A stretch of DNA of 64,000 nucleotides from Pontibacter mucosus (GTDB lineage Bacteria; Bacteroidota; Bacteroidia; Cytophagales; Hymenobacteraceae). The stretch is from NCBI RefSeq assembly GCF_003054055.1, contig NZ_QBKI01000004.1, positions 186,001 through 250,000 on the forward strand, written 5' to 3'. The notes below the pieces were generated by a model. That model had not been told where the DNA came from. It did no database searches and was given only the letters and a program-made list of their open reading frames with translations. This document shows positions 1 through 64,000 of the stretch, one piece after another (positions within the stretch are counted from its first letter, which is position 1; every line of letters begins with the position of its first letter). A program made the position numbers and the translations under genes.

Positions 1-978
1 ACGGAAGCAGGCAGAATGAAAGCCTGGACCAAGTATGATTTTGTGCCGGGAGATAAAGTAATGTTCTCGGATAACCTGGCCGGCGAGGAAGTAGGTGAAT
101 TTCCGTCGCGCTGGGACCTGAAACACGGTAATGCCGAAGTAGCCGTGCTTGGAGACGAGAAAGTGATCAACCTGGTGCAGAGCAGCACAAGCATCACCCC
201 GCTGATGAAAGGAGAAAACTGGTTGCCTGAAACCTTCACCATAGAGATGGATGTGTTCTTCGACAGCGACAACGGCAACGTGGCTTATGAGATATTCCTG
301 GTAAGCGACCAAAAAACGTACAAAGAAGAAGTACATGGCGATTTCTGGAACCCCATCGACATCCGGGCCAACCAGTTAAGGTTCAAAACCTTCGGTTCCG
401 AGTCGGAGGAATTGGCTGCCAAGGAGGTAAAAAACCAGTGGCGGCACGTGGCTATCTCGTTTAACAAGCGCAGCATGAAAGTATACCTCGACGAGCACCG
501 CCTGATCAACATCCCGAACGTAAACGGCAAACCAACCGGCCTGCGCATTGAAGTGGACAAGCGCATTGATGCCAACACGATGATAAAGAACGTGATGATT
601 GCCCAGGGCGGCAAGAAGCTCTATGACCAGGTTCTGGCCGATGGCAAAATCGTTACCTACGGCATCAAGTTCGACGTGAACAAGGCTACCATCCGCCCGG
701 AGTCGGTAGGCACGCTGGCAAGTATAGCCAAGCTCATGCAGGAGCAGCCGGAGCTGAAATTTAGCGTAGAGGGACACACCGACAGCGACGGCGACGATAC
801 CTCCAACCTGAAGCTGAGCCAGCAGCGCGCGGAAGCGGTGAAAACATACCTGGTGGATCAGGGCATTGCCGCTGAACGCCTGGCCGCCAAAGGCCACGGC
901 GAGGCGAAGCCCATCGACAAGAACAATACTCCCGAGGCCAAGTCGAATAACCGGCGGGTGGAGTTTGTAAAACTATAA
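1..978 (+). CDS. OmpA-family outer membrane protein, 5'-truncated by the window
   Basis: The reading frame is open to the first base of the window, so this is the C-terminal part of a longer protein; the first in-window ATG (16) is probably internal. The last ~110 residues are an OmpA C-terminal peptidoglycan-binding domain: FDVNKATI strand, EGHTDSDG loop, and NNRRVEF at the end, with the Asp and Arg that contact diaminopimelate. The preceding ~200 residues look like a beta-sandwich (concanavalin/LamG-like), as often seen in Bacteroidota OmpA proteins. Likely a periplasm-facing outer membrane protein tethering the envelope to peptidoglycan. A strong hairpin follows. The OmpA domain is sure; the N-terminal domain is inferred from its look only. 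Confidence 0.85.
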   Translation, partial: TEAGRMKAWTKYDFVPGDKVMFSDNLAGEEVGEFPSRWDLKHGNAEVAVLGDEKVINLVQSSTSITPLMKGENWLPETFTIEMDVFFDSDNGNVAYEIFLVSDQKTYKEEVHGDFWNPIDIRANQLRFKTFGSESEELAAKEVKNQWRHVAISFNKRSMKVYLDEHRLINIPNVNGKPTGLRIEVDKRIDANTMIKNVMIAQGGKKLYDQVLADGKIVTYGIKFDVNKATIRPESVGTLASIAKLMQEQPELKFSVEGHTDSDGDDTSNLKLSQQRAEAVKTYLVDQGIAAERLAAKGHGEAKPIDKNNTPEAKSNNRRVEFVKL

Positions 979-1040
979 TCACACCGGCAGCGCCCGCCCG
1001 GGTTCTGCCACCCAATTATTCTTTCAGTATCTTTTACCAA

Positions 1041-1068
1041 GCCTGTTACTTAACTGTAACAGGCTTTT
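1041..1068 (+). terminator. Rho-independent terminator after the OmpA gene
   Basis: Perfect 9-bp stem (GCCTGTTAC with GTAACAGGC), 6-nt loop, followed by TTTT. It lies about 60 nt after the stop codon. Confidence 0.8.
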
Positions 1069-1102
1069 CGGTTTACAGATACCTGTGTTTGAACAAAGAA
1101 TA

Positions 1103-1125
1103 TTATTTAGATTTATTTTAAATAA
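1103..1125. promoter_or_regulatory. Fur-like palindromic operator upstream of the TonB receptor
   Basis: An 11-1-11 near-palindrome: the left half TTATTTAGATT matches the complement of the right half at 9 of 11 positions. It sits just upstream of the -33 element of the next promoter. A+T-rich dyads of this size and place are typical of Fur-type iron regulators. The iron link is an inference from the downstream receptor/PepSY pair. Confidence 0.5.
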
Positions 1126-1128
1126 GAC

Positions 1129-1159
1129 TTGCATGGATGCTCCCCCTCCTATACTTTTG
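1129..1159 (+). promoter_or_regulatory. Bacteroidota-type promoter for the TonB receptor gene
   Basis: TTG at 1129-1131 and TACTTTTG at 1152-1159 (TAnnTTTG consensus), separated by 20 nt, as expected for the primary sigma factor of Bacteroidota. The start codon is about 40 nt downstream. Confidence 0.6.
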
Positions 1160-1200
1160 CCCTAATTATAATCAGTCTAAATAAGAACACCTAACCATCC

Positions 1201-3540
1201 ATGCGCAAGTTTCTACTCCTCTTCATATGGCTATTTGCCTTGTCCGAAGGACAGGCGCAAAGCAACGCCACCATTGCCGGCAAAGTAACCACATCACAGG
1301 GCCAGCCGGTTGAGCTGCTCACCGTTGCCCTGGAAGGGACCGTGCTGGGCACGAATACCAACGCTGCCGGCGAGTTTATACTTAACAACATCAAGCCGGG
1401 CAGTTATACCTTGCGTGTGGGCGGAATCGGCTACAAGTCCTTGCGCCAGCCCATCACCCTTGGCAGCGGCGACAACCTGAACCTGCAGCTAACCATACAA
1501 GCAAGCACCAGCACCCTGGATGAGGTGGTGGTATCGGCCAGCCGCAGCGTGGAAACCCTGGACGAGACACCTGCCTCCGTACATGTGATCGATTCGCGAA
1601 CCCTGCAGATTCAGTCGCAGATAAGCACCGACATTTCTAACATCCTGGCGAACTCGGTCCCCGGCCTGGCCTTCAACAGCAACACCACCAGCAACGTGGG
1701 CCAGACGCTGCGCGGCCGCAACGCCCTGGTAATGGTAGACGGGATACCGCAGTCCACGCCGCTGCGCAACGGTAGCCGCGACATCCGCACCATCGACCCT
1801 ACCGCTATTGAGCGAGTGGAGGTGGTAAAAGGCGCCACCGCGGTGTATGGCAACGGCGCTGACGGCGGCCTGATCAACTACATCACCAAGCAGGCTAACA
1901 CCAGCCAGCCTTTCAGCGCCTATACTTCCGTTACCGGCACGGGCAACCTTTTCCATGCTGATGGCACCCTGGGTGGCCGCATCTCGCAGCAGTTTACCGG
2001 TAAACTCAATAACTTCGACTACGTAGCCAGCGGCACCTATGAGAAAACCGGCGTACTGCGCGATGGTGAGGGAGAGGTTATCTCTCCGGTGTACGGGTTG
2101 GGTGAAACGAAAATGTACAACGGCTTTGCCAAGGCAGGCTATAATTTCAACTCCAACCACCGTCTGGAAGGCATGTACAACTACTTCGGTAGCCGCCAGA
2201 ACTCGGACTATATCCTCCAGGAGGGCATCTATGGCGAAAAGCCATCTATCGGCGTGAGGGGCGAAGTACAGGGCGAGCCGGAGGGCACCAAGTATAACCA
2301 CAACGCCCAGCTGCGCTACATTGGCAAAAACCTGTTCCTGAACACTAACCTGGAGCTAAGCTCTTACCTGCAAAGCTTCTACACCGTCTACGGCTATACG
2401 CCATACTTTGAGGGTGGCGGGCAATCGACCATCAAATCCGCTAAAAGGGGTGTGCGCCTGAACCTGAACACGCCTTTTAGAATTAGCAGCGGTATTGAGG
2501 GCAGCGTGGTGTATGGTGCCGATTACCTCAACGACGTTACCTCCCAGCCGCTGGTGGATGGCCGCACCTGGGTGCCGGAGATGGACCTGCACAACCTGGC
2601 TCCTTATGCGCAACTGCAGCTCAACATCCTGCAGGACCTGAATTTCAAGGCGGGCTACCGCTTCGACAATGTGTCGGTAAATGTGGATGATTTTCAGCAG
2701 TTGGTGCTGGCAAGCGGCGCTGGTGGGGACTTTGTGCAGGGTGCAAAACTGAAGTTCAATGCCAACACCTTCAACCTTGGCCTGCGCTACTCCGGGCTGG
2801 AATACTTCAAACCGTTTGTCAGCTACTCACAAGGGTTCTCTATGATAGACGTGGGCCGTTACGTACGCAGTGCCACCGAAGACTTTATCGCGCAAATGGA
2901 CCTGGAGCCGGTGATCGTGAACAACTACGAGGCTGGTTTCCACAGCCAGTTCGGGATTGCCTCTTTCAGCGGTGCCTACTTTATCAGCACCTCTAAGCTG
3001 GGGGCCAACCTGATTGCCAACGAGGCCGGCGTGTACGAGATTGAGCGTGCACCGGAGCGCGTGGAAGGCTTTGAGGCGCTGGTAGACCTGTTCCTCTCCG
3101 ACAAAATAACACTGGGCGTCAACGCCTCTTACAGCGAAGGCAAGGCAGACATCAACAACAACGAAAAGTATAGCGACAGCGAAGACAAGTACCTGACCAG
3201 CCTGCGCATCCCGCCGTTCAAGTTCACGTCTTACCTGAACCTGAAGCCCATCCAGAACCTGAGCGTGAACCTGCAGTGGATATACTCCGGCGAGCGCGAC
3301 CGCTTTGACCGTAACGCCAAAGGCGGCTACAACTCTGGCGAGGGTCCGGTGAAGGCATTCGACGTGTTTAACCTGGCTGCCTCTTACCAGGCCACTGAAA
3401 AGCTGAGCCTGAACGTGGGCGTGGAGAACCTGCTGGACAAAGCCTACTACCTGCCACAAGCTTACTGGTATGGCCGAAACGACAACTTTACCAGAGCCAA
3501 CGGCGCCAGATTTCAGTTAGGAGCAGCCTATAAGTGGTAA
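1201..3540 (+). CDS. TonB-dependent outer membrane receptor, likely iron/siderophore
   Basis: Complete 779-residue receptor: signal peptide (1-20), carboxypeptidase-like regulatory domain (~22-100), TonB-box-like LDEVVVSA (106-113), plug (~120-235) with VMVDGIP and VEVVKGATAVYGNGADGG, then a 22-strand-type barrel ending in aromatic Trp. It should bind a ferric chelate at the surface and import it with energy from TonB/ExbBD. The gene lies behind a Fur-like dyad and 4 nt before a PepSY membrane protein, a common iron-uptake pairing. The ligand cannot be read from sequence; cobalamin or another metal chelate is the alternative. Confidence 0.9.
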   Translation: MRKFLLLFIWLFALSEGQAQSNATIAGKVTTSQGQPVELLTVALEGTVLGTNTNAAGEFILNNIKPGSYTLRVGGIGYKSLRQPITLGSGDNLNLQLTIQASTSTLDEVVVSASRSVETLDETPASVHVIDSRTLQIQSQISTDISNILANSVPGLAFNSNTTSNVGQTLRGRNALVMVDGIPQSTPLRNGSRDIRTIDPTAIERVEVVKGATAVYGNGADGGLINYITKQANTSQPFSAYTSVTGTGNLFHADGTLGGRISQQFTGKLNNFDYVASGTYEKTGVLRDGEGEVISPVYGLGETKMYNGFAKAGYNFNSNHRLEGMYNYFGSRQNSDYILQEGIYGEKPSIGVRGEVQGEPEGTKYNHNAQLRYIGKNLFLNTNLELSSYLQSFYTVYGYTPYFEGGGQSTIKSAKRGVRLNLNTPFRISSGIEGSVVYGADYLNDVTSQPLVDGRTWVPEMDLHNLAPYAQLQLNILQDLNFKAGYRFDNVSVNVDDFQQLVLASGAGGDFVQGAKLKFNANTFNLGLRYSGLEYFKPFVSYSQGFSMIDVGRYVRSATEDFIAQMDLEPVIVNNYEAGFHSQFGIASFSGAYFISTSKLGANLIANEAGVYEIERAPERVEGFEALVDLFLSDKITLGVNASYSEGKADINNNEKYSDSEDKYLTSLRIPPFKFTSYLNLKPIQNLSVNLQWIYSGERDRFDRNAKGGYNSGEGPVKAFDVFNLAASYQATEKLSLNVGVENLLDKAYYLPQAYWYGRNDNFTRANGARFQLGAAYKW

Positions 3541-3544
3541 TACT

Positions 3545-4648
3545 TTGAAGAAACGCGTAAAAAGAACCTTTTCCATTCACCATTGGTGCGGGCTGATAGC
3601 CGGGATATTCATCCTGGTTATCAGCCTTTCTGGCGTTATACTGGTCTTTGATGATGACATCGACGACGCTATGTTTGCCAACCATGCCAGACTGGAAACG
3701 CCGGCCAAAGCACTGCACATTGATAAATCAATTGGCTGGGTAAGGGCGGAGAACTCGGGCTGGGACATTCGGGTGCCTGCGTTGCCTGCCTCGCCAGACG
3801 AAGCGCTGCTGTACGAGCTGCGGCAGGGGCAGCTGCGCCGGTGGCTCTTCGTGCACCCTGAAACCGGGGAGAAGCTGTCTACCGTGGGACAGGCCCACAA
3901 CCGCTTTTCCTACGTGGTGCTCAATATCCATTACAACCTGCTCTCAGGCACGCCGGGTAAAATCGTGGTGCTGCTGATAGGCGTGGCACTGCTGCTGCTT
4001 ACCATTACCGGGTTTATACTTTACCGACGTTCGGTGCTCAAGGTGCTTACTTTCCGGCAAAAAATCAGTTTTAGCAGCCGCCGAAGCATATTTTCCGGTC
4101 TGCACCGCGTGGTAGGCGTGTGGGCATTGGCGTTTAACCTGCTCATGTGTGTTACGGGTTTATCCTTGGCTATTACGGTGGTAAATGCCGCCCTCAAAGG
4201 CGGGCCAAAGGAAATTGCTGTGCCCGAAATCACCACCTCTGTAGATGCCACCATGGCCGAAGCGCGGGCCACCTATCCCGAGTTTGAAATCACGTACCTG
4301 CGCTTTCCGGTAAATGAAGAGGGCAAGCTCCAACTGCTCGGCCGCCTGTACTCCGACCCCTCCTACTACGGCAAGTTCTACAGCAAAATACAGGCAGATT
4401 ATACCACCGGTGAGCTGGGTGCCCCCTACTTTGTGCGGGACCAACCGTTGCTCGACCGCTTCCTTACCTCGCTGCACCCCGTCCACTTTGGTGATTTTGC
4501 GGGGCTCTTTGTAAAGCTGCTCTACGCCTTCTTTGGGCTGATGCCTGGGATACTTTCCATCTCCGGCTTTGTGATTTGGTACTACCGCCAGCAGCCGCAG
4601 CCGGAGCAAAAACAGGTGAGAAGGCAAGTGGTGAAGGTGGTGCGGTAG
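3545..4648 (+). CDS. PepSY-associated inner membrane protein (PiuB-like, iron uptake)
   Basis: 367 residues with four predicted membrane segments (~13-36, 142-162, 190-212, 323-347) around periplasmic PepSY-type regions. The HHW in the first segment and further membrane-proximal His residues fit haem-binding ferric-chelate reductase relatives. The start is a TTG 4 nt after the receptor's stop codon; the next Met would remove the first membrane segment, so TTG is preferred. Probably translated from the receptor's mRNA and acting after it, releasing iron from its chelator in the periplasm. Family assignment is firm; the reductase role is inferred. Confidence 0.85.
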   Translation: MKKRVKRTFSIHHWCGLIAGIFILVISLSGVILVFDDDIDDAMFANHARLETPAKALHIDKSIGWVRAENSGWDIRVPALPASPDEALLYELRQGQLRRWLFVHPETGEKLSTVGQAHNRFSYVVLNIHYNLLSGTPGKIVVLLIGVALLLLTITGFILYRRSVLKVLTFRQKISFSSRRSIFSGLHRVVGVWALAFNLLMCVTGLSLAITVVNAALKGGPKEIAVPEITTSVDATMAEARATYPEFEITYLRFPVNEEGKLQLLGRLYSDPSYYGKFYSKIQADYTTGELGAPYFVRDQPLLDRFLTSLHPVHFGDFAGLFVKLLYAFFGLMPGILSISGFVIWYYRQQPQPEQKQVRRQVVKVVR

Positions 4649-5163: not shown

Positions 5164-5200
5164 CCGGCGCCGCAGGTTTATACTTGCGGCGCCGGCTTTT
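5164..5200. terminator. Bidirectional terminator between convergent genes
   Basis: Perfect 11-bp G+C stem (CCGGCGCCGCA with its complement), followed by TTTT on the plus strand and by TTTTT on the minus strand. The loop is made of a TTTATACTT word. It separates the PepSY gene from the DUF5686 gene. Confidence 0.85.
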
Positions 5201-5221
5201 CATACTTTGATTTATACTTGC

Positions 5222-12105: not shown

Positions 12106-12870
12106 CTACTCAAAGAAAAGTATAAGTGATACGTTATGGTGGGTCAGCTTGTCGATGGACCTGCTGTAGGTGCTGTTTGATAAAAGCTTGTGCTGGTTCA
12201 GCAAACCGTGGGAGAAACGCAGCTCCGGGGCAAACTTAAAGTATGGGTAGAAGATATCGATGCCGATGCCATACTCCAGCGCCAGGTCAAACTTCTCCAC
12301 TTCCAGGTAATTGTCAACCTTTGCGCCATTATTGCCTTTGCCCAGGTCTATACCGGGCTTAATACCCGCCACCATGTAGGGCCTGTAGTTAGAGCGGCGC
12401 TTGGATTTATACTTCAGCAGCACCGGCAGCTCAATCATGGTGTTGCTGATTGTCTCCAGCATCACGTCCTCTGTCTCCTCTGTGGTTGGTACCTTGGTAA
12501 ACTCCAGGGTGCGGCCATAAAACCCCACTCCCGGCACAAAGCGGGCATCCAGGTAATCAGCCAGGCGCACGTTCAGCACCAGGCCCGTGTAAAATCCCAG
12601 AGACTTTTTGGAGTTGATGGCTTCCTCACTGCCTGCTCTCAGACGGTCCACATACTCCTGCGAGTGGTGCACGTTATACTTGGTAAGCGGCACGGCCAGG
12701 TAAAAGCCGTAGTGCACGGGGCGCTCGTCGTAGCCGGGCTTGTTAAGGGCGTTTACTTTTTGCTGCGCCTGCGCTTTGCCGCCCAGCATCAGTAAAAGTA
12801 TAAACAGACTACAAAAGGCTATTTTTTGCCTGTGTAGATAGAGCTTATGCCAAATGTGAGTGAATGCCAT
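12106..12870 (-). CDS. porT: PorT/SprT-family protein of type IX secretion and gliding
   Basis: 254 residues: signal peptide (hydrophobic 17-31, AQA cleavage), then a beta-rich outer-membrane-like protein with VHYGFYLAVPLTKY, LNVRLADYLDARFVPGVGFYGR and ELPVLLKYKSKR, which match PorT-type proteins. PorT/SprT is needed for type IX secretion in Porphyromonas and Flavobacterium. As I recall, it commonly sits beside ubiE, as here. The start overlaps the 3' end of ubiE by 52 nt; a shorter start would damage the signal peptide. Other T9SS genes are not in view except a PorE-like candidate nearby. Confidence 0.75.
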   Translation of the reverse strand: MAFTHIWHKLYLHRQKIAFCSLFILLLMLGGKAQAQQKVNALNKPGYDERPVHYGFYLAVPLTKYNVHHSQEYVDRLRAGSEEAINSKKSLGFYTGLVLNVRLADYLDARFVPGVGFYGRTLEFTKVPTTEETEDVMLETISNTMIELPVLLKYKSKRRSNYRPYMVAGIKPGIDLGKGNNGAKVDNYLEVEKFDLALEYGIGIDIFYPYFKFAPELRFSHGLLNQHKLLSNSTYSRSIDKLTHHNVSLILFFE

Positions 12871-17917: not shown

Positions 17918-18463
17918 GTTGCTGCTGGTTTATACTTTGAGCTTTTATACTTTAGGCAAATTATACTTTTGCGGGCTGGCTGAAGTATAAAGTATAGATG
18001 CTGTGATTTATACTTACGTGAAGGTGTAAACCCACCCCCGCCCCGCCCGAGAGGGGAATTCCTGTACCTGTATTCCAGCCCCCCTTCCTCTGAAAAAAGA
18101 TCCCTTAAGTCTACAAGTAACTGTCCCCTTGAGGGGACCATAGGGGTGTAAGGCCAGTGGCAAGAGTCTTCACTAAAAGTAAACCCAACCCCTTAAGGCT
18201 ACTCTCGCTAACTCAAAACTCGCGCTTTGGCTAGCCCAGAGGAGCGAAATCGGGGAACGATTGTCATCCCCCTACCCCCTTCGAAGGGGGACTTGGCAGA
18301 AGTATAATTCCCCTCCTTGGAGAGGTTAGGGGTGGATTAAGCGGGCCCAGCAAGTATAAAAACCAGAAGTATAAAACCACACTCCATTCTCTGGCCAAAG
18401 TATAAGTATAAAACATTTGCCGCCTTCAGCTATTTATACTTGCAGCAACAATTTCTAAAGTAT
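17918..18463. repeat. Gene-free stretch with AAGTATAAA cluster and palindromic repeats
   Basis: Exact AAGTATAAA/TTTATACTT words lie at 17929-17937, 17944-17952, 17983-17991 and 18007-18015, with near copies between and more at 18353-18440. A GTCCCCTTGAGGGGAC palindrome is at 18123-18138, followed by the AGGGGTGTAA tail also seen near 4900 and 47230. Two CCCCTCC/GGGG-type blocks are near 18265 and 18310. No gene is supported. Confidence 0.7.
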
Positions 18464-18478
18464 ATGTACCTTTACGCA

Positions 18479-24123: not shown

Positions 24124-25038
24124 TTACTGCTTCAGCCACAGGGCACCGTTCTTGGAAGTATACTTCCCAATTTTGCCTTGCGCGTGCAGGTTCTGCAGGT
24201 ATACTTCGGCCTCGCCGGTTTTCATACCAGAGATAACGGCAAACTCCTTGGTGGTAAGTGTGCTATACTTAGCAAAAACCGAAGTATAGGCTGTTTCATA
24301 CACCTGCTTTTTTGCCTCCGGGTGCAGCTGCAGCAGCGCCTGCTCATACTGCTCGTAAGGGCGGGAGCCGTATACCAGCACGCGGTTATCATTCTGATCA
24401 GATACAAAGATGGTCGGGAAGCCGCGCACGCCCAACTGACGCGCCAGCGCCAGATCTTCTTGGAACAGCGTTACTGCCTTGCCTTCAAAATCAGACTTCA
24501 GCTGCGCCACATCCAGGCCAGTCTGCTCGGCGGCCAGCGCCAGGTTTTCCCAGCGGGCAATGTTTTTCTTCTCCAGGAAGATCATCTCCTTTATCCTTCT
24601 CAGGAACTTCACGGCCTTGTCCTCGCCCTGCAACTGAGCTGCCTTAAAGGCGATGGAAGGCGGGTAAGAGGATGGCAGCGGGTCTTCCAGCCACAGGTCG
24701 CCGTCTATTGGCATTTCGTAGTAGGCGCCGGCCTCTTCCCAGTGCTGGGCTACGCTGGCAGGTCCGTTTACGTCGCGGCCGCCGTAGGCTTCCCAGCTTG
24801 GCAGCAAGCCGCCCATGCGGTACTCTACTTCAAAGTATGGGCCGTACTCCAGCGCCAGTTTCTTCAGTTGCGGATCGATACCCCAGCACGAGGAACAGAT
24901 CGGGTCGGTAAAGTATAGCAGCTTGATCGGCTTCTGCGCAGCGGCAATGTTAGTTTCTTCTGTGGTTTCCTGTGCTACCGGCATTTCGCAAACGCCAGTC
25001 TCCATATCGCAGTGCATGATTGTTGGTTTTGTCTCCAT
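24124..25038 (-). CDS. DsbA-family thioredoxin-fold protein (FrnE/SpxH-like)
   Basis: 304 residues. FTDPICSSCWG gives a redox CxxC (Cys48, Cys51) with an inserted helical domain, and GVRGFPTIFV supplies the cis-Pro loop. No signal peptide, so cytoplasmic, as for FrnE- or YjbH/SpxH-type proteins. The last ~60 residues (TLTTKEFAVISGMKTGEAEVYLQNLHAQGKIGKY) look like a winged-helix extension, which is unusual. Divergent from a redox-type HxlR regulator. The role in disulfide handling is inferred. Confidence 0.8.
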   Translation of the reverse strand: METKPTIMHCDMETGVCEMPVAQETTEETNIAAAQKPIKLLYFTDPICSSCWGIDPQLKKLALEYGPYFEVEYRMGGLLPSWEAYGGRDVNGPASVAQHWEEAGAYYEMPIDGDLWLEDPLPSSYPPSIAFKAAQLQGEDKAVKFLRRIKEMIFLEKKNIARWENLALAAEQTGLDVAQLKSDFEGKAVTLFQEDLALARQLGVRGFPTIFVSDQNDNRVLVYGSRPYEQYEQALLQLHPEAKKQVYETAYTSVFAKYSTLTTKEFAVISGMKTGEAEVYLQNLHAQGKIGKYTSKNGALWLKQ

Positions 25039-32171: not shown

Positions 32172-33413
32172 TTGAAGTTACTCTACGACATCGGCCTGAA
32201 GGCTTATAGTACGGCCATTGCCCTGGCAGCCCCTTTCAATGAGAAGGCGAAGCTGATGCGGCAGGGGCGTGAGCGGCAGTTCGAACGGCTGCAGCAGGCC
32301 TTGCAGCAGAACCAGGCGCCGCTGGTATGGTTTCACTGCGCCTCGCTGGGCGAGTTTGAGCAGGGACGGCCGGTGATAGAGGCATTCCGGGAGGCGTTTC
32401 CAAAGTATAAAGTGCTGCTTACCTTCTTCTCCCCTTCCGGCTACGAGGTGCGCAAAAACTACGCGGGCGCCGACTACATCTTCTACCTGCCGCTGGACAG
32501 CGCCGCCAACGCCAAACGCTTTCTGGACATCGCGCAGCCCAAACTGGCCGTGTTTGTGAAGTATGAGTTCTGGCACTACTACCTGCAGGAGCTGGCTAAG
32601 CGAAGCATTCCTATACTTTCCATTTCGGCTATTTTCCGGCCAGAGCAGGTGTTCTTTAAGCCTTACGGCGATTTTTACCGCAACATCCTGCGCCGCTTCA
32701 CGCATATCTATACCCAGAACCATACTTCGCTGGAGCTGCTGCAACGTATCAACATCACCCACGCAAGTATAGCCGGCGACACGCGTTTCGATAGGGTGCT
32801 GCAAACGGCGGCAAGTATAAAACCCATTCCGCTGGTAGAGGCCTTCGCGGCCGGGCAACAGGTATTTATGGTGGGCAGCAGCTGGCCCGCCGACATAGAA
32901 GTGCTGCTGCCACTGATCCAGAAGTATAAACCAAGTATAAAATTCATCATCGCGCCACACGAGGTAAACGAGGCAAGTATAAACACGGTGATGCAGGCTT
33001 TGGGCGAGGGATCGGTGCGCTTCTCCCAAACCTCTGAGGCAGATGCGGCCAGGTATCAGGTGCTGGTGATTGACAACATCGGCATGCTCTCGGCACTCTA
33101 CAGCTACGGCACCTACGCCTACATCGGCGGGGCCTTCGGCAAAGGGCTGCACAACACCCTGGAGGCGGCCGTATTCGGGCTGCCGCTCTTCTTCGGGCCC
33201 AAGTATGACAAGTTTCAGGAGGCGAAGGATTTGGTGGCGCGGGGCTGCGCTTTTCCGGTGCAAAATGCCGAAGAGCTGCTGCAGGCCTTTGAGCGGGTGC
33301 ACACCACGCCTGGCCTACGCCAAAGTATAACCGACAAAGAAAAAGTATACGTACAAGAGCAAGCCGGCGCTACGGCCAAAATCATGGCTGATGTAAGGCA
33401 ACTGCTGAAATAG
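32172..33413 (+). CDS. waaA: 3-deoxy-D-manno-octulosonic acid transferase
   Basis: 413 residues, the usual size. WFHCASLGEFEQGRPVIEAF, FFSPSGYEVRKNY, KYEFWHYYLQEL, APHEVNE and GGAFGKGLHNTLEAAVFGLPLFFGP are the KdtA landmarks. It transfers Kdo to lipid A at the inner membrane. The start is a TTG; the next Met is at residue 29, inside the conserved N-terminus. Nine AGTATA words lie inside this one gene (mostly as AGT ATA for Ser-Ile), the densest coding cluster in the window. Followed at 5 nt by rsgA. Confidence 0.95.
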   Translation: MKLLYDIGLKAYSTAIALAAPFNEKAKLMRQGRERQFERLQQALQQNQAPLVWFHCASLGEFEQGRPVIEAFREAFPKYKVLLTFFSPSGYEVRKNYAGADYIFYLPLDSAANAKRFLDIAQPKLAVFVKYEFWHYYLQELAKRSIPILSISAIFRPEQVFFKPYGDFYRNILRRFTHIYTQNHTSLELLQRINITHASIAGDTRFDRVLQTAASIKPIPLVEAFAAGQQVFMVGSSWPADIEVLLPLIQKYKPSIKFIIAPHEVNEASINTVMQALGEGSVRFSQTSEADAARYQVLVIDNIGMLSALYSYGTYAYIGGAFGKGLHNTLEAAVFGLPLFFGPKYDKFQEAKDLVARGCAFPVQNAEELLQAFERVHTTPGLRQSITDKEKVYVQEQAGATAKIMADVRQLLK

Positions 33414-33418
33414 ATTAC

Positions 33419-34342
33419 ATGAAAGGAGTAGTAATAAAATCGACGGGATCGTGGTACCTGGTGCGCGACGAGGAAGGAAAGCTGCACCGGGCGCGCCTGC
33501 GCGGGAAGTTCAAGATAAAGGGCCTGAAGGTAAGCAACCCGCTGGCCGTGGGCGACCGCGTGGCATTTGAGGTAGAGCAGACGGGCGAAGACACCGCCGT
33601 AATTTACCAGATCGAGGACCGCGAGAACTACATCATCCGACAGAGCACGCACAAAACTGCCTACTCCCACATCATCGCCGCGAACCTCGACCAGGCCCTG
33701 CTTATCGTAACGCTCGTGTCGCCGCGCACCTCCTTTGGCTTTATAGATCGCTTCCTGGTTACCGCCGAGGCCTACGACATCCCTACCACACTTGTCTTCA
33801 ACAAAACGGACCTTTACGACGACGAGGTGCGCGACTACCAGCGCCAGATAAGCCACATGTACCAGCAGATTGGGTATAACAGCCTGGCGGTGTCGGCAGC
33901 AACCAACGAGGGGATTGAGGATATAAAGGCGCTGCTGCACGGCAAAACCACGCTGCTCTCGGGCCACTCGGGCGTAGGCAAGTCCACGCTCATCAACCTC
34001 ATCGTGCCCGACCTGGAGCTGAAAACCTCCGAGATCTCCGACTTCTCCGACAAAGGCGTGCACACCACCACCTTCGCCGAGATGTTCGAGATAGATCCCG
34101 AAACCTTCATCATCGACACGCCCGGTATCAAAGAGCTGGGCATTGTGGACATTCCCCCGGCGGAGCTGAGCCACTTTTTTCCGGAAATGCGCGAGCGCCT
34201 GAACCAGTGCCGCTTCAACAACTGCACGCACTTCAACGAGCCGGGCTGCGCCGTAATAGAGGCCGTGCGCCACAACGAGATTTCCCTCTCCCGCTACGAG
34301 AGCTACCTGAGCATGCTGCATGGGCAGGACAACCGGAAGTAG
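33419..34342 (+). CDS. rsgA: Ribosome small-subunit GTPase RsgA
   Basis: 307 residues: N-terminal OB domain, then a circularly permuted GTPase with NKTD before GHSGVGKST (P-loop Lys188) and DTPGIKELG, and a C-terminal zinc module (CRFNNCTHFNEPGC). It matures the 30S subunit. It begins 5 nt after waaA, so both share a transcript. A GGAGTTAGAG-type repeat begins just after its stop. Confidence 0.96.
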   Translation: MKGVVIKSTGSWYLVRDEEGKLHRARLRGKFKIKGLKVSNPLAVGDRVAFEVEQTGEDTAVIYQIEDRENYIIRQSTHKTAYSHIIAANLDQALLIVTLVSPRTSFGFIDRFLVTAEAYDIPTTLVFNKTDLYDDEVRDYQRQISHMYQQIGYNSLAVSAATNEGIEDIKALLHGKTTLLSGHSGVGKSTLINLIVPDLELKTSEISDFSDKGVHTTTFAEMFEIDPETFIIDTPGIKELGIVDIPPAELSHFFPEMRERLNQCRFNNCTHFNEPGCAVIEAVRHNEISLSRYESYLSMLHGQDNRK

Positions 34343-34777
34343 CTTTGGAGTTTAAGAGTTGGGGAGTTAGAGAGTTTGGGAGTTGTAGAGACGCAATGAC
34401 TTGCGTCTTTATAGTTAGAAAGTTAGAAAAGGGTGGAGTGGAGATTTGCTTGTTCTGCCTGCTTGCTTCCAAAGTATAAAGTATACTTCTCAAGTATAAG
34501 ACCAATAACGAACGAGTTTTGCACCTTAGTTTGTGCCTCGCTCGCCTCTGGCGAGTGTGCGTCATTTGGTGGCGTCCCGCCACCCGTGCCCGGAGGCACA
34601 CGTTAAAGCGGCCAGAGTCCCCCTAATAGTTCACACTCGCCAGAGGCGAGCGAGGGGAGATTTACTTTCTCTACCTGGTCCGGCTGCAAAGTATAAAGTA
34701 TACTTCCCAGGTATAAACCTGCGGCCTTGCAAATAGCTAGCCGAGGTTTATTGGTCGGAACGAACTTTACTTCTGAA
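34343..34777. repeat. Gene-free stretch with several dispersed repeat families
   Basis: 34347-34432: GGGAGTTAGAGAGTT-type repeat with the GACGCAAT dyad (inverted relative to 22773). 34471-34500 and 34688-34715: two similar segments carrying AAAGTATAAAGTATACTTC. 34540-34590 and 34627-34650: CTCGCCTCTGGCGAG units in opposite orientation, the first followed by the GGTGGCGTCCCGCCACC dyad also seen near 5095. No gene is supported. Confidence 0.7.
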
Positions 34778-57909: not shown

Positions 57910-57911
57910 GC

Positions 57912-58657: not shown

Positions 58658-58660
58658 TCA

Positions 58661-58723
58661 TAAAGTATAAAACGGGAGCGGCTGGCACTACTAAAATGCC
58701 AGCCGCTCCCGTTTTATACTTTA
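58661..58723. terminator. 27-bp perfect inverted repeat ending in AAAGTATAAAA/TTTTATACTTT
   Basis: Arms 58661-58687 and 58697-58723 are exactly complementary with a 9-nt loop. The outer 12 bp are the AAGTATAAA word in opposite orientations; the inner part is a G+C stem. It works as a bidirectional terminator between the mazG-like and comB genes. Confidence 0.9.
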
Positions 58724-58752
58724 GAGAGTTAACTTTCTAACTCCTAAACTCT

Positions 58753-59481
58753 CTAACTCTTAACTTCCCCAACTCTCACCAGGTCCACCAGCCTGTCGTG
58801 GCGCCAAACGGGTAGTACATCGTACACGTCGTGGCGGAGGCAGAACTCGATGTCTTTGTGGATTTCCAGGTGCTCTAGGCGGCGCACGTGCGAGGACTGA
58901 CGCAGAAACTCCACCAGATCCTGCTTGGCCGTCTGGTATAAGTATAGCGCAGCCAGGGCGCTGTCATGTTCGTAGCTAAAGCTATCGTTCAGCCGCTCTA
59001 CCAGGGCGCCGGCAAATAGGGTGTCCTCCAGGTTAAACTGGCCTTTCCAGCCGGCACAAACCACCAGTACATCCAGGTTCAGCTCCCGTAGGTGGTTGAC
59101 CACCGCCTGCAGGTTCAGGAAAGCGCCCACCACAATCTCCTCTGCCGCCTCCGACAGCCGGATGGCACGCGTACCGTTAGTAGTCGTGATCGCGATGTCG
59201 CGCCCCGCCACGTTCCCGTTCATGTATGCGAACGGGGAGTTGCCCAGGTCAAAACCCTCGGCTTTGATGCCGTTACGCTCCGCGGCTGTCAGGCAACCGC
59301 GCTCGGCAAATCCACGGCACTCTTCCAGCTCCATCACCGGGAAGATGTGAGAAGCCCCCTCCGCAAAGGCTGTTACCATGGTAGAAGTAGCCCGCAGCAC
59401 ATCCACAGCCACCACAGCCTTTCCCTTCAAATCATACAAGTGCAGCAGCTCCGGGCTGAAACACACATCTATACTTGGCAT
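58753..59481 (-). CDS. comB: 2-phosphosulfolactate phosphatase family protein
   Basis: 242 residues: VVAVDVLRATSTMVTAFAEGA, FDLGNSPFAYM, ITTTNGTRAI and VCAGWKGQFNLEDTLFAGAL are ComB signatures. ComB converts 2-phosphosulfolactate to sulfolactate (coenzyme M route in archaea). In Bacteroidota a link to sulfonate/sulfonolipid metabolism is possible but unproven. Its last eight codons and its TAG stop are made of the GGGAGTTAGAG-type repeat (58753-58779). Second gene after gcvT on the same strand. Confidence 0.9.
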   Translation of the reverse strand: MPSIDVCFSPELLHLYDLKGKAVVAVDVLRATSTMVTAFAEGASHIFPVMELEECRGFAERGCLTAAERNGIKAEGFDLGNSPFAYMNGNVAGRDIAITTTNGTRAIRLSEAAEEIVVGAFLNLQAVVNHLRELNLDVLVVCAGWKGQFNLEDTLFAGALVERLNDSFSYEHDSALAALYLYQTAKQDLVEFLRQSSHVRRLEHLEIHKDIEFCLRHDVYDVLPVWRHDRLVDLVRVGEVKS

Positions 59482-59496
59482 AAGTATTTGTTATTC

Positions 59497-59554
59497 GTTA
59501 GTAGTTGTTAGTTGTTCGTAAGAATGTAGTAACGAACAATTAACAACTACTAAC
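59497..59554. repeat. Near-perfect 23-bp inverted repeat between gcvT and comB
   Basis: Arms 59497-59519 and 59532-59554 pair at 22 of 23 positions around a 12-nt loop. A+T-rich with no T run; it may be a repeat unit or stabilise the mRNA end. Confidence 0.6.
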
Positions 59555-59560
59555 CATTAG

Positions 59561-60649
59561 CTATTTCTTAACGAAAGGCAGCTTTACCACCTGTGCCTTC
59601 ATGTCCTTGTTGCGCACGCGGATGCTTATCTCGGTGCCTACCTTGCTGTAGTCTTTGGTTACGTAGCCCAGCCCGATGCCCTTACCAAGCGATGGCGACA
59701 TGGTGCCGGAGGTCACTTCGCCCACCTTCTCGCCCTCAGCGTTCACGATCTCGTAGTGCGAGCGCGGAATAGCTTTCTCCAGCATCTCAAACCCAATCAG
59801 CTTGCGGCTTACGCCCTGCTCTTTCTGCGCCTTCAGGTTCTCTGAGTTCACAAACTCCTTGTCAAACTTGGTGATCCAGCCCAGGCCAGCCTCCAGCGGG
59901 GAGGTGGTATCGTCGATGTCGTTACCGTAGAGGCAGAAGCCCATCTCCAGACGCAGCGTGTCGCGGGCACCCAGGCCGATTGGCTTAATGCCATGCGCCT
60001 TGCCAGCCTCCATTATCGCGTCGAATACCTTGCGGGCATCCTCGTTTTTCACGTAGATCTCAAAACCGCCCGCACCAGTATAGCCTGTTGCAGACACCAG
60101 CACATCCGGCACACCGGCAAACTCGCCCCGCTCAAACGTATAGTAAGCCATACTGGCCAGGTCGATCTTGGTCAACGGTTGCAGCGCCTCAACGGTTTTA
60201 GGCCCCTGCACGGCAAACAGGGAGGTTTCATCAGAGATGTTCACCATCTCCGCGCCCTCGGTGTTATACTTGCTGATCCAGTTCCAGTCCTTTTCGATGT
60301 TAGAAGCGTTTACCACCAGCAGGTACTCTTCCTCAGCCATGCGGTACACCAAAAGGTCGTCCACGATGCCGCCCTCCTCGTTTGGTAGGCAGGAATACTG
60401 TATTTTTCCGTCCGCCAGTTTAGAGGCATCATTGGTGGTTACGCGCTGGATCAGGTCCAGGGCTTTGGGGCCACGAAGTATAAACTCGCCCATGTGCGAC
60501 ACGTCGAAGATGCCAACTGCCTCGCGCACCGTCTTATGTTCTTCTATATCTGATGAGTAGCGCACAGGCATGTTATAGCCGGCAAAAGGCACCATTTTAG
60601 CGCCCAGCGCCTCGTGCACATCATTTAAAGCGATTTTCTTAAGTTCCAT
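59561..60649 (-). CDS. gcvT: Glycine cleavage system aminomethyltransferase (T protein)
   Basis: 362 residues, the usual length. [68 protein letters not shown]. It releases ammonia and passes the methylene group from H-protein-bound aminomethyl to tetrahydrofolate. The P and H proteins are not adjacent. Behind a TAnnTTTG box; no glycine riboswitch was recognised. Confidence 0.96.
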
Positions 60650-60984
60650 ATCAGATTGAGCTATTCATTGTTATATGGCAAAATTAAGTATTTTTCGGGC
60701 TCATCCTAAATTAATCCCCTGCCGCTGGCTAGGTTTGCCGCCGGTGGAACAAGTGCGCCATCGTTGTAACCATTACCTATAACTCTCGTATGAGCTTAGA
60801 CCAGAATAATCGCCAAAGGAAATATATGTTTACCCAGATACAATTTGCCTGCACTGCTGGCCTAGCCTCGCTGTGCTGCTCTCTAAGCTCCCTATCTCCT
60901 GATTTGTCTACGCTATTGCAGGCTTAACCACTGTCAACTCTCCCTGCACAGGAGCCAGCCAACTTATAGCCTCAGCCCTTATCC
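60650..60984. other. Divergent intergenic region with one possible tiny ORF
   Basis: TAATTTTG (60679-60686, minus) is a -7 box for gcvT. A 45-codon frame on the plus strand (60790-60927, MSLDQNNRQRKYMF...) has a Cys/Ser-rich hydrophobic end but no other support. Nothing else was recognised. Confidence 0.35.
60679..60686 (-). promoter_or_regulatory. -7 box (TAATTTTG) of gcvT
   Basis: Exact TAnnTTTG on the minus strand, 30 nt before the gcvT start codon. Confidence 0.45.
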
Positions 60985-62487
60985 ATGAAACTATCTGTAA
61001 AACTATTTGCCGGATTTCTGCTGATCTCGGTGCTGTTTACAGCCGTAGCCATTGTTAACTTCCGCCTGTCGGAGGCCGTTATCGAGAACTCGAAATGGGT
61101 GTCCCGCTCGCAGATTGTCGTGCGCAACTCTGCCGCGCTCCAACGTAACATCATCGACATGGAAACCGGCCTGCGGGGCTTCCTGCTAAACGGCAACGAG
61201 ACTTTTCTGAAGCCGTACTGGCAGGCCCGCGACCAGATGCCGAGTCTGATGCAGGAAACGCGCAACTTCGTAACCAACCTGCCCGACCAGCAAAAGAAGC
61301 TAGATGAGATAGCCGAACTGCAGCAGCGGCTGGAAAAAGATTTCGCTACGCCACTCATCCAGATGAAACGCTCCCATCAGGACACGATCATGACGGATCG
61401 GGAGCTAGACCTAAAGCTGGAGGAGCTGGTGCTGGGCGAGCAAATGGTGATGGACTCCATTCGGGCCGCCTTCCGTGCCTTTAACGCCATCGAGTACCAG
61501 GTGCGGGCAGACCGCAGCGAGCGCCTGAACAAAAGTATAAACAACACCCGCCAGCTCTCCACCATACTTACCATACTTTCTGTGATCATCGGCCTGAGCT
61601 GGGCCTACTACATTACCCGCCTCATCAGTAACCGCATCATGAAGATGGTGACGCTGGCCGAGCAAATTTCCAGGGGCGACTATAAAACCCAGATTGTAGA
61701 TACGGGCCAGGATGAGCTGAGCCGCCTGTCGCACTCCCTTAACCGCATGTCGGCCACCATCGATGAGACCTTTACGGAGCTGGATCAAAAGAACAAGGAG
61801 CTGGACCAGTTTGCCTACGTGGTGTCGCATGACCTGAAAGCCCCCTTGCGCGGCATTGAGGTGGCATCGCGTTGGGTGGAGGAGGACATGGGAAGCCAGC
61901 TGCCCGATAACATAAAGGAATATCTGAAGATGATGCGCGCCCGTGTGCACCGGATGGAGAACCTGATAAACGGCATTCTGGCCCTCTCCCGCATTGGGCG
62001 CACAAGCCAGGCGAAGGAGCAGGTAGATACAAACGAGCTTCTGGCGGAAGTTGTGGAGTTACTGTCGCCGCCGCCGGGCTTCCGAATAGATGTACAGCGT
62101 AACTTACCTGCCCTCCATACCGTTCGAATACAGTTACAGCAGGTCTTCAGCAACCTGATCAGCAACGCCATCAAATACCACGATAAGGAGAATGGGAAAA
62201 TTACAGTTCGGCACCACGAAACAGAGGAATTTCACGTTTTCTCTGTAACGGACGACGGCCCCGGCATAGATCCGGAGTACCATGCACGGATATTCGTGAT
62301 ATTTCAGACGCTGCAGGAACGGGATGCTTTGGAGAGCACCGGCGTAGGCCTAAGTATAGTAAAGAAGATTGTTGAGTTGCAAGGGGGAACTGTGTGGGTA
62401 ACTTCGGAGCCAGGCTCGGGATCTACTTTTACTTTTACGTGGCCAAAACATACTGTTATTGAACAAGAAATTAGTAGCTTTGTCTAA
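60985..62487 (+). CDS. CHASE3-HAMP sensor histidine kinase
   Basis: 500 residues: membrane segment (7-27), periplasmic CHASE3 domain (~30-190, RNIIDMETGLRGFLLNG), second membrane segment (193-211), HAMP (~212-265), HisKA with VVSHDLKAPL (His282), HATPase with NLISNAIKYHDK, DDGPGI and STGVGLSIVKKIVE. The kinase half is of the phytochrome-associated Cph1 type. Ligand unknown. The single-domain receiver 23 nt downstream is its probable partner. Confidence 0.93.
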   Translation: MKLSVKLFAGFLLISVLFTAVAIVNFRLSEAVIENSKWVSRSQIVVRNSAALQRNIIDMETGLRGFLLNGNETFLKPYWQARDQMPSLMQETRNFVTNLPDQQKKLDEIAELQQRLEKDFATPLIQMKRSHQDTIMTDRELDLKLEELVLGEQMVMDSIRAAFRAFNAIEYQVRADRSERLNKSINNTRQLSTILTILSVIIGLSWAYYITRLISNRIMKMVTLAEQISRGDYKTQIVDTGQDELSRLSHSLNRMSATIDETFTELDQKNKELDQFAYVVSHDLKAPLRGIEVASRWVEEDMGSQLPDNIKEYLKMMRARVHRMENLINGILALSRIGRTSQAKEQVDTNELLAEVVELLSPPPGFRIDVQRNLPALHTVRIQLQQVFSNLISNAIKYHDKENGKITVRHHETEEFHVFSVTDDGPGIDPEYHARIFVIFQTLQERDALESTGVGLSIVKKIVELQGGTVWVTSEPGSGSTFTFTWPKHTVIEQEISSFV

Positions 62488-62510
62488 TACTCTGAAGGGA
62501 TTAAAGTATA

Positions 62511-62945
62511 ATGAGCGAGAAAGAAGTTAATATCCTGCTAGTAGAGGATGACTACCTGGATACGATGAATGTTGAGCGGGAGCTTAAGAAGATTGGCGTG
62601 AATCACCCGGTATTTGAGGCACGCAACGGCAAGGAAGCCCTGAACCTGCTGCGCGGCGTCGGTGTGCCCAAAATCTCGCCAGCCCCCAGCGTTATACTCC
62701 TGGATATAAACATGCCGAAAATGAACGGCCTGGAATTCCTGACGGAGTTACGCCACGACCCGGAGTTCAGCCACATCCCTGTCTTTATCATGACCACCTC
62801 CAACGAGGAAACCGACCGCCTGGCCGCACAGAAACTCAATGTATCGGGCTATATTGTGAAGCCCCTCTCCTTCGACAGCTTCGAGCGCAGCGACTCTTCC
62901 CTCGACAGCTTCAGCCTCTTCCTGGACCTGATTAAGCTTAAATAA
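62511..62945 (+). CDS. Single-domain response regulator (Rcp1-like)
   Basis: 144 residues, receiver domain only: acidic pocket VEDD (11-14), phospho-acceptor Asp65 in LLDINMP, MTTSNEE and the YIVKP Lys. No output domain, as in Rcp1, which pairs with Cph1-type kinases. It starts 23 nt after the kinase gene and ends before a strong terminator. Output is probably by protein contact or phosphorelay. Confidence 0.95.
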   Translation: MSEKEVNILLVEDDYLDTMNVERELKKIGVNHPVFEARNGKEALNLLRGVGVPKISPAPSVILLDINMPKMNGLEFLTELRHDPEFSHIPVFIMTTSNEETDRLAAQKLNVSGYIVKPLSFDSFERSDSSLDSFSLFLDLIKLK

Positions 62946-62971
62946 GCACCCGCTTTCTTCTCGAAAGTAAT

Positions 62972-63018
62972 AAGTATAAAAGCCGCTGAGCATCTGCTGT
63001 TCAGCGGCTTTTATACTT
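62972..63018. terminator. Terminator with AAGTATAAA/TTTATACTT as stem base
   Basis: 18-bp perfect stem: AAGTATAAAAG then G+C core, with an 11-nt loop. The base of the stem is the AAGTATAAA word in inverted pair, as at 58661-58723. It separates the receiver gene from convergent rnhB. Confidence 0.9.
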
Positions 63019-63106
63019 TAGAAGGCATTTTATACTTCGCCTCCGGGTGATCAGCTTATACGTTGCAGCGAGTATAAACCCGAGGCAAGTATAAGTATAA
63101 GTACAA

Positions 63107-63697
63107 CTACTGCAGTTGCTTTGGCAGGAGCGTAAAAGATTGCCGGTGATGCTCCGTAGCACCGTGGCTGGAGATGCCCATCCGGTGTGCCTTCGTAGGA
63201 TAGCCTGCATTTTGTTCCCAACCGTAATGCGGGTGTTCCTGCGCCAGACGGCTCATCAGGTCGTCGCGGTGGGTCTTAGCCAGCACAGAGGCAGCCGCTA
63301 TAGACAGGTAGCTGGAATCGCCTTTCACAATGCAGGCGTAGGGTATTTGGTTGTATGGCTTAAAGCGGTTCCCATCCACCAGCAGGTACTCCGGCTGCTG
63401 CGGCAGCGCCTCCAGGGCACGGTGCATGGCCAGGTAAGTGGCATTCAGGATGTTTACCTCATCAATTTCTTCTACAGAGGCCTCCCCTATGGCCCAGGCC
63501 ACGGCATCGCGTGTAAGCTCACCGCGCAGCTGCTCCCGGAGTTTTTTTGTAAGTTTCTTGGAATCGGTAAGGAGCTGGTGCCGGTAATCGGGCGGAAGTA
63601 TAACAGCTGCCGCCACCACCGGACCGGCCAGGCAGCCTCTTCCCACCTCGTCTACGCCCGCCTCTAAGGTATAGCCACTGTAGTTTGGTAATAGCAT
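63107..63697 (-). CDS. rnhB: Ribonuclease HII
   Basis: 196 residues from ATG 63697 (MLLPNYSGYTLEAGVDEVGRG). The frame extends to 63745, but that part would overlap the upstream gene's terminator. Catalytic Asp16-Glu17 (VDEVGRG), LLVDGNRF, and SVLAKTHRDDLM Asp are present. It removes ribonucleotides and RNA primers from DNA. Confidence 0.96.
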   Translation of the reverse strand: MLLPNYSGYTLEAGVDEVGRGCLAGPVVAAAVILPPDYRHQLLTDSKKLTKKLREQLRGELTRDAVAWAIGEASVEEIDEVNILNATYLAMHRALEALPQQPEYLLVDGNRFKPYNQIPYACIVKGDSSYLSIAAASVLAKTHRDDLMSRLAQEHPHYGWEQNAGYPTKAHRMGISSHGATEHHRQSFTLLPKQLQ

Positions 63698-63729
63698 TTG
63701 TATAAACTTTGGGCACAAGTATAAAAAGA

Positions 63730-63761
63730 AAAGCCCGCCAGTCAAACGACCGGCGGGCTTT
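63730..63761 (-). terminator. Terminator of the truncated gene at the window end
   Basis: 10-bp stem AAAGCCCGCC/GGCGGGCTTT with inner GTC/GAC pairs. On the minus strand it is followed by TTTTCTTTTT, about 50 nt after the stop codon at 63814. Confidence 0.82.
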
Positions 63762-63813
63762 AAGGTTAAACTTTCACTTTAAACTAGTATTTGACTGTCA
63801 TGTCATGACTTAA

Positions 63814-64000
63814 TTACCTCGGGCTTATTACAGGAGCCGAACCAGCTGAAGGAGCATTAAAATCCAGCTCATTTTCTGGCACATCCCATCTTTCAAGGTA
63901 ATTATAATCAATTGTTGCATTCTTATCTAGCTCTAAAGTTCCTTTCGCGTTGTGAAGCACAACTGCATTGGTTCTGCCGCCGCCCTCAGAAACAGGCTTA
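63814..64000 (-). CDS. C-terminal fragment of an unidentified protein, truncated by the window
   Basis: Minus-strand frame open from the window edge to TAA at 63814-63816; 61 codons, too short to be caught as a full gene. The readable end includes RTNAVVLHNAKGTLELDK, DYNYLERWDVPENELDF and a short Ala/Ser/Pro tail. A terminator follows at the right distance, supporting a real gene. No family recognised. Confidence 0.6.
   Translation of the reverse strand, partial: KPVSEGGGRTNAVVLHNAKGTLELDKNATIDYNYLERWDVPENELDFNAPSAGSAPVISPR

Follow-up and report, generated by a model that had tools for sequence, protein, structure and literature searches.

Why should one short word recur, on both strands, from end to end of a stretch of bacterial DNA? 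The question is raised by a window of 64,000 nucleotides of Pontibacter mucosus (the whole stretch of DNA that was analysed), in which the 9-mer AAGTATAAA, read as TTTATACTT on the opposite strand, and its core AAGTATA (TATACTT) are strongly over-represented. By analogy with the DNA uptake sequences (DUS) and uptake signal sequences (USS) of other bacteria, AAGTATA[A/G] is here interpreted as a genome self-recognition word, most probably an uptake sequence that serves natural transformation, a reading to which we give a probability of roughly 0.48. The word is likened to DUS and USS because it is spelled in dialects, because its sites are partly inherited, arise by substitution and are gained and retained directionally, and because it lacks a strand bias and is scarce in the accessory DNA that was sampled.

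Exact copies of the 9-mer number 73 in the window (37 forward and 36 reverse, spread over positions 1 to 64000), where a preliminary description of this DNA had counted about 75 by eye; the core is commoner still, as had also been stated, with 198 copies (99 on each strand). An order-3 Markov model predicts 4.0 copies of the 9-mer (z 32.7) and 33 of the core (z 28.3); no other 9-mer of the window reaches as high a z as AAGTATAAA. The excess over chance that had been claimed is therefore real, but the expectation of about 0.5 copies attached to it was too low against this model. The whole genome (5,231,950 bases in 23 contigs) holds 4337 copies, 2171 and 2166 by strand, as compared to 32 (21 and 11) for the reversed word, so that the excess extends far beyond the window. 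As in DUS and USS, a short word is thus strongly over-represented on either strand.

The unit was delineated in a sample of 464 kb (about 9% of the genome), made up of the window plus 20 further 20-kb stretches. Alignment of 1194 cores confines the information to about 10 bases, from one base before the core, where A is preferred, to two bases after it. Position 8 favours A, then G, then C, with T nearly excluded, and position 9 favours A, C and G in that order. Single-change variants of the 9-mer occur at 0.4-2.3x expectation for positions 1-6 and at 0.1-3.3x for position 7, and reach up to 6x and 10x for positions 8 and 9, respectively. Because variant counts fall to near expectation over the first six positions and rise over the last two, the unit is AAGTATA, a sharply defined 7-mer whose 3' end is graded. 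The figures for positions 1-6 also imply that the word is not merely a fragment of longer repeats; no longer conserved repeat was found around it beyond about 10 bp in this sample, which sets it apart from elements of the repetitive extragenic palindromic (REP) type.

The 9-mer was then counted in 99 genomes: 50 of Pontibacter, P. mucosus included, 11 of other genera of its family, the Hymenobacteraceae, which the preliminary description had guessed correctly, and 38 of the order. Within Pontibacter the counts are bimodal, 23 of the 50 genomes holding 1062-4337 copies and 27 holding 84-572. None of the 49 genomes from outside the genus displays an excess, the largest ratio to the reversed word being 3.3x (13 vs 4). 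The word is lineage-specific, as had been surmised, and the comparison uncovered dialects besides. No report of such a word in this group was found in the literature that was searched, a scope outside which most subscription journals fall.

Species poor in the 9-mer were examined over 11-19 kb around one orthologous anchor locus, available from the 49 other genomes of the genus. In the window this anchor comprises two genes on the forward strand (32172-34342), encoding a member of the Kdo transferase family (32172-33413) and the RsgA GTPase (33419-34342), and 9-mers lie within them at 32403, 32813, 32922, 32933 and 32975. The same two genes provided a tree (720 columns, quick method, midpoint root) in which 22 of 47 inner branches have support below 80. 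The top over-represented 7-mer at the anchor locus is AGGTATA or the overlapping GGTATAG in 12 species, and six others are headed by AACTATA or ACTATAG, which overlaps it; in genome G032, AAGTATA ranks first and AACTATA third. The AGGTATA species form one clade of 12 and the AACTATA species, together with G032, one clade of 7, both with a support of 100 in the Shimodaira-Hasegawa-like approximate likelihood ratio test (SH-aLRT). Whole-genome counts follow this division: AGGTATAGC is present in 1365-2768 copies in the former clade and 57-297 in the other 38 genomes, and AACTATAGC in 752-2985 copies in the latter and 22-318 in the other 43. Three members of the AACTATA clade, G026, G032 and G046, are rich in AAGTATA as well, as if caught between dialects.

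Further spellings occur in a clade of four (support 99; G036, G042, G024 and G045) lying amid the AAGTATA species. G036 is rich in GGGTATRR, with 4343 copies vs 1256 of the reversed control (488-1643 copies in the other 49 genomes), and G042 in TATATRGC, with 3299 copies vs 736 (148-530 in the others); no word was seen in the DNA examined of G024 and G045. The same holds for any clear word in seven species (G002, G007, G023, G025, G027, G033 and G041, the last from 16 kb only), all of which fall outside the supported group of 43 in the midpoint-rooted tree; G007 has a slight excess of AAGTATAAA (572 copies vs 92 of the reversed word). In all, nine of the 50 Pontibacter genomes have no clear word, and at least five spellings exist within the genus, specific to clades or single species as are the dialects of DUS and USS. 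The nearest relative of P. mucosus is G039 (91% DNA identity over 4.3 kb). The lowest AAGTATAAA count among the 20 pure AAGTATA species, 1270, belongs to the single-contig genome G021.

How sites are gained and lost was followed in 44 pairs of species that share a dialect and are at least 82% identical in the aligned region (82-92%), with the three mixed species left out; pairs were counted from both sides and the counts are non-independent. Aligned ungapped words are kept at 1926 of 2718 sites (70.9%), as compared to 1716 of 4130 (41.5%) for 30 sets of permuted words. Two or more changes are seen in 43.6% of the changed word sites and 46.6% of the changed control sites, with similar spectra, and gapped sites, which were set aside, are rare (110 of 2828 words, 209 of 4339 controls). 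Since the kept share exceeds that of the controls while the change spectrum and the gaps match them, ordinary substitutions both create and destroy words, which are retained more often than controls. Origin by point mutation and retention without insertion are also features of DUS and USS. Against 12 stricter sets of control words, loss affects 29% of word sites vs 73% of control sites, and sites one mismatch away from the word are a word in the partner genome in 10.5% of 4271 cases vs 1.5% for controls (0.5-3.0% for single sets), gains and losses being unpolarised by an outgroup. A directional force acts on both gain and loss, for which selection, biased conversion or biased mutation can each be sufficient.

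Respelling between dialects was assessed at the single anchor locus, in pooled species-pair comparisons that share sites. At AAGTATA sites, the AGGTATA clade reads exactly AGGTATA in 21.6% of 3696 comparisons and keeps AAGTATA in 6.9%; the AACTATA clade reads exactly AACTATA in 26.3% of 1138 and keeps AAGTATA in 14.9%. Among the species of the AAGTATA group themselves, AGGTATA stands at these sites in 2.6% of 6231 comparisons and AACTATA in 0.1%. AGGTATA sites become AACTATA, two letters apart, in 18.3% of 717 comparisons, and four control 7-mers undergoing the same letter change between the AAGTATA and AGGTATA groups yield 0 to 2.8%. A recount of distinct sites used 11 species chosen from the 36 with one clear main dialect, all other 7-mers sharing the first three letters as controls, and a call by at least half of the aligned species, the p values being uncorrected. 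For P. mucosus, 4 of 33 word sites are respelled and 3 kept in the AGGTATA clade, vs 16 of 411 other AAGnnnn sites respelled (p 0.052), and 6 of 28 are respelled in the AACTATA clade vs 4 of 412 controls (p 7e-6). Respelling lies above controls in all 22 tests made with the 11 species at this locus, with p <0.05 in 21, and is strongest where AACTATA sites of G044 are compared with the AAGTATA group (9 of 36 vs 0 of 493 controls). Some sites are therefore shared by descent among the three main spellings and change with the dialect; the majority are lost or new from one dialect to another.

Where the words lie was described with gene calls from our own hexamer scorer, which are crude and miss some genes (e.g., the open reading frame (ORF) at 12106-12870), making the split between coding and intergenic DNA approximate. 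With these calls, the 449 9-mers of the 464-kb sample distribute as 157 coding, 271 intergenic and 21 spanning a boundary, in keeping with the preliminary description, which had placed the word in genes and gaps alike; the density is 0.42 per kb in genes vs 3.06 per kb between them. Cores, which amount to 2.6 per kb overall, occur within genes 332 times with the gene strand and 268 times against it, neither being strongly preferred, and at all offsets to the codon frame in both orientations. In intergenic gaps of 20-1500 bases, the core density is 10.2 per kb between convergent, 7.1 between co-directional and 5.3 between divergent genes. Since the density is lowest in divergent gaps and highest in convergent ones, promoters are not favoured, and the distribution suggests that the word favours free sequence. 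Inverted pairs in terminators, which had been presented as a trait of the word, do exist: two pairs form the outer stem of terminator-like hairpins at 58663-58721 (18 more base pairs inside) and 62972-63018 (14 more base pairs inside). They are a minority, however, as only 17 of 108 convergent pairs 15-70 bp apart are of this kind in 864 kb of P. mucosus and its relative G020.

Neighbouring intergenic words of the 464-kb sample tend to be co-oriented (177 vs 18 pairs at 6-20 bp, 222 vs 110 at 300-600 bp), and words inside genes hardly are (170 vs 145 at 300-600 bp), clusters weighing heavily in such pair counts. Two clusters of the window are illustrative. The first, at 17929-18015 in a gap without a called gene, holds six words: three reverse, a forward tandem of two at 7 bp, and one reverse. 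The second, at 18300-18464, holds seven words, six of them co-oriented, and extends into the start of a called gene. Two cores may also overlap as a palindrome, AAGTATACTT, at 24156-24165 and likewise at 34479, 34696, 47740, 48642, 50605 and 56615; such overlaps are rare (42 pairs in 2554 AAGTATA, 32 pairs in 250 AACTATA). At the very start of contig 3 of the genome (L020:5-95), 15 cores overlap in an array whose period is 6 bp. Spacings peak at 7, 11 and 18-19 bp, partly owing to one 6-bp array, and the periodogram at 5.75, 12.5 and 11 bp; a helical phasing of 10.5 bp is not clear from either analysis.

Apart from the word, the window harbours a dispersed intergenic repeat of about 120-160 bp at 34496-34660, which has several copies in the genome and recurs, once or more, in many other Pontibacter genomes (about 76-89% identity). 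A short repeat near a GAGTTAGAG-like stretch, at 34342-34439, is also present in G020, G039, G034 and G013. No Rfam family matches the window at its gathering score, and the window has no tRNA gene.

The distribution of the word along a genome was analysed in G020, a relative using the same AAGTATA dialect. Word density rises with GC content (Spearman 0.81, 20 pieces), although the word is AT-rich. The four poorest pieces, in which ten ORFs were scanned, include MmeI-type restriction, polysaccharide, threonine-synthesis and kinase/phosphatase genes, as well as rpoC with the gene of elongation factor G (EF-G). Because the poorest pieces hold both the MmeI and polysaccharide genes and rpoC/EF-G, foreign-looking and strongly constrained DNA are both word-poor. 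In G019, G001 and G020, the second contigs, which are presumably plasmids, contain 2, 0 and 8 cores in their first 10 kb (0-0.8 per kb), as compared to 1.05, 1.21 and 1.68 per kb in their anchor regions, a comparison of three contigs and few regions.

Several other processes could populate a genome with a short word. The main rival is an orphan methyltransferase with a non-palindromic 7-bp target acting with methylation-directed repair, in the manner of the highly iterated palindrome HIP1, the dialects following changes of target. In the available part of one study, HIP words are genome-wide and species-variable, and are replaced by alternates along with the matching methyltransferase (PMC4390886). 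A word-creating bias would also produce the raised gain rate and the higher density in less constrained gaps. However, HIP and its alternates are palindromic and AAGTATA, AGGTATA and AACTATA are not; besides, such a process acts on all resident DNA, so that the word-poor second contigs would be unexpected unless these replicons are recent. This explanation is judged unlikely. Quite unlikely, too, is that the words are sites of an abundant nucleoid or chromosome-organising protein, weakly selected in their thousands and changed in concert with the specificity of the protein. Any change of reader would yield respelling of inherited sites, and tandem copies at 7 and 11 bp could aid cooperative binding, but the doubtful 10.5-bp phasing does not help this proposal, the lower density in divergent than in convergent gaps makes promoter regulation unlikely, and age would have to account for the poverty of islands and second contigs.

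A word that is short, lineage-specific and over-represented could also be an orientation signal, read by AddAB/RecBCD as Chi is or by FtsK as are the FtsK-orienting polar sequences (KOPS). Both Chi and KOPS are strongly orientation-biased. The word does occur in both orientations, as had been reported. With GC skew as a guide to the replichores (the origin was not located), word clusters in 20 pieces of the 4.98-Mb contig of G020 lie 246 times on the G-richer strand and 216 times on the other (p 0.18), and no KOPS- or Chi-like polarity was seen in these pieces or between the strands of the window, which makes such a signal very improbable. Net orientation correlates weakly with GC skew (rank correlation 0.45), at the border of significance (p 0.049). 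Along contig 1 of P. mucosus an orientation bias is strong in raw counts and mostly gone once clusters are collapsed (3 of 21 pieces with p <0.05). Finally, the word might have spread by insertion or copying, as a transposon-like or REP-like element or through slippage arrays. The local arrays, one with 15 copies at a 6-bp period, and the co-orientation of intergenic neighbours would fit such a process; the lack of conservation beyond about 10 bp and the control-like gaps and change spectrum speak against it, and this explanation is the least probable of all.

The reading as a self-recognition word for DNA uptake would operate as follows. A putative envelope receptor, sequence-specific for double-stranded DNA, would bind word-carrying DNA, which would then pass a helix-hairpin-helix (HHH) protein and the ComEC channel. 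Recombination would swap resident alleles for incoming word-carrying alleles, and words gained by point mutation would thereby spread and persist. A shift in receptor specificity would cause old sites to be respelled or lost and new ones to be gained, giving rise to dialects. A protein reader, uptake as the process and a receptor other than a pilus protein are all inferred.

Genes for such a pathway are present in part. ComEC is found in 50 of 50 genomes, with an internal stop in G009 and G021, and a ComEA-like tandem-HHH protein of 304-346 amino acids (313 in P. mucosus) has an open frame in 49 of 50, being broken in G021. In this last genome, ComEC and the tandem-HHH gene (C1:2771217-2771876; 2078296-2078647) show stops or short frames, for which a sequencing error is possible. 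Crude ORF calls around the HHH gene in 20 genomes, one cut short, revealed no neighbour tracking the dialect, and this neighbourhood was discarded as the home of a dialect-specific gene. No ATPase covering the type II/IV secretion family (PF00437) was found in any of the 50 genomes, a search that did not extend to pilins and secretins; the matches are short P-loop stretches, three of them barely over the cut-off (25.0-25.9 vs 24.9 bits), and were rejected as type IV pilus ATPases. Because no genome has a full ATPase of the type IV pilus or type II secretion system, a receptor of the ComP type is not expected, and uptake machinery of the Neisseria/Haemophilus type seems to be absent from Pontibacter. 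The proposal of an uptake sequence, made in the preliminary description, may thus be retained as the best-supported reading by analogy, but without the usual pilus ATPase; although the word would work like a DUS, it is not classed as one, because the pilus motor was sought and not found.

Other observations weigh against an uptake word in addition to the missing ATPase. ComEC and the HHH protein do not track the word, since word-rich and word-free species alike have both, and neither can be the determinant of its presence. DUF5689, considered as a receptor, is absent from P. mucosus, occurs in 22 of 50 genomes and bears no relation to the word. Local same-orientation intergenic arrays are present; they are not known to be a trait of DUS or USS, and they fit none of the considered models well. 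Even spacing is a property of USS, and word clusters here are no more even than in a two-rate random model, and less even from 1 kb up. The trend of raw density with GC content is not significant in P. mucosus itself (0.29, p 0.21), and the highly conserved rpoC/EF-G region of G020 is as word-poor as the islands. Most aligned word sites are neither kept nor respelled between dialects, and the dialect sites of G036 and G042 do not coincide with those of the other dialects. Scarcely any literature linking Pontibacter with natural transformation was found, within the same scope of search as above.

A second word came to light outside Pontibacter, in a scan covering loci of at least 9000 bases; the locus L254 (1041 bases) did not enter the analysis. 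It is spelled AACGTAGC or AACGTACC, reaches up to about 16x the reversed control, varies among species (loci L162, L165, L173, L178 and L180), and belongs to the Spirosoma/Fibrella/Fibrivirga group, which we take to be the family Spirosomataceae. Across 18 genomes, AACGTASC was set against its reversed form as control; it is present in 6624 copies vs 418 in Spirosoma profusum, 4785 vs 330 in Fibrella forsythiae, 3631 vs 274 in Fibrivirga algicola, 3381 vs 364 in Spirosoma terrae, 2828 vs 396 in S. endophyticum, and 2232 vs 301 and 2228 vs 325 in two Fibrisoma. The ratio is 1.8-4.4x in five other Spirosoma/Fibrella, 1.1-1.9x in four Larkinella and about 2.1x in two Rufibacter. In the 20-kb loci of three Spirosoma, ACGTAGC is a frequent word, as is ACGTACC in those of Fibrella forsythiae and Fibrivirga, a dialect-like pattern. 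In the same scan, three Larkinella species (L164, L167, L203) have AAAACCG in excess (2.5- to 3.3-fold) over about 20 kb. The extreme words seen in L184 and L163 do not extend beyond single loci and are probably local repeats.

A wider reading, with the odds somewhat against it, would be that Pontibacter practises pilus-free, sequence-specific uptake through an envelope receptor reading a 7-bp word, that this receptor has shifted at least four times in the genus (five spellings), building barriers to gene exchange, and that the separate word of Spirosoma, Fibrella and Fibrivirga suggests a repeated origin in the Cytophagales. To our knowledge, genome words with dialects are associated only with type IV pili (Neisseriaceae, Pasteurellaceae) or methyltransferases (HIP, cyanobacteria). 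With at least five spellings in one Bacteroidota genus and sites partly inherited, Pontibacter offers a natural experiment on the joint change of reader and sites.

Among known systems, DUS and USS display, in the available parts of the published accounts, dialects congruent with phylogeny, positions in terminators, an origin by point mutation and an atypical distribution in mobile DNA (PMC3630211, PMC1626085, PMC7371117). The same portions describe the DUS of Neisseriaceae as sharing with the Pontibacter word thousands of copies, dialects following phylogeny, genic and intergenic positions and some inverted pairs in terminators (PMC3630211); to their atypical distribution in mobile DNA (PMC7371117) may be compared the low density in the three second contigs. 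Unlike the Neisseriaceae, Pontibacter has no full type IV pilus ATPase, and its word has a core of 7 bp instead of 10 or more, a strong intergenic preference, same-orientation arrays and the density of cores given above. The USS of Pasteurellaceae (Hin and Apl types) resemble it in that a 9-mer is spelled specifically in each subclade and, from what the source makes available, does not arise by insertion (PMC1626085); the Pontibacter word differs in having no flanking motif, no pilus ATPase and no even spacing. HIP1 and the alternate HIPs of cyanobacteria, as far as the accessible text goes, are likewise genome-wide, patchy among species and replaced by alternates (PMC4390886). They are, however, GC-rich palindromes tied to orphan methyltransferases, and the Pontibacter words are non-palindromic.

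The closest comparison within the Bacteroidota is with Riemerella, where a transposon screen, according to the available part of the report, found transformation to require ComEC, DprA, ComF, RecA and four proteins that resemble no known transformation machinery, among which is an HHH protein; no pilus gene is among the eight essential genes named there (PMC8459023). R. columbina takes up its own DNA preferentially, and a type IV pilus-type system is considered possible in Flavobacterium johnsoniae, again from a partial view of the source (PMC7965970); in the parts available of these two papers (PMC7965970, PMC8459023) no uptake word is named for Riemerella. The DUF5689 surface protein, essential in Riemerella, is lacking in P. 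mucosus. Like Riemerella, Pontibacter has ComEC and an HHH protein, and its words might offer a way into the envelope step by which Bacteroidota take up DNA.

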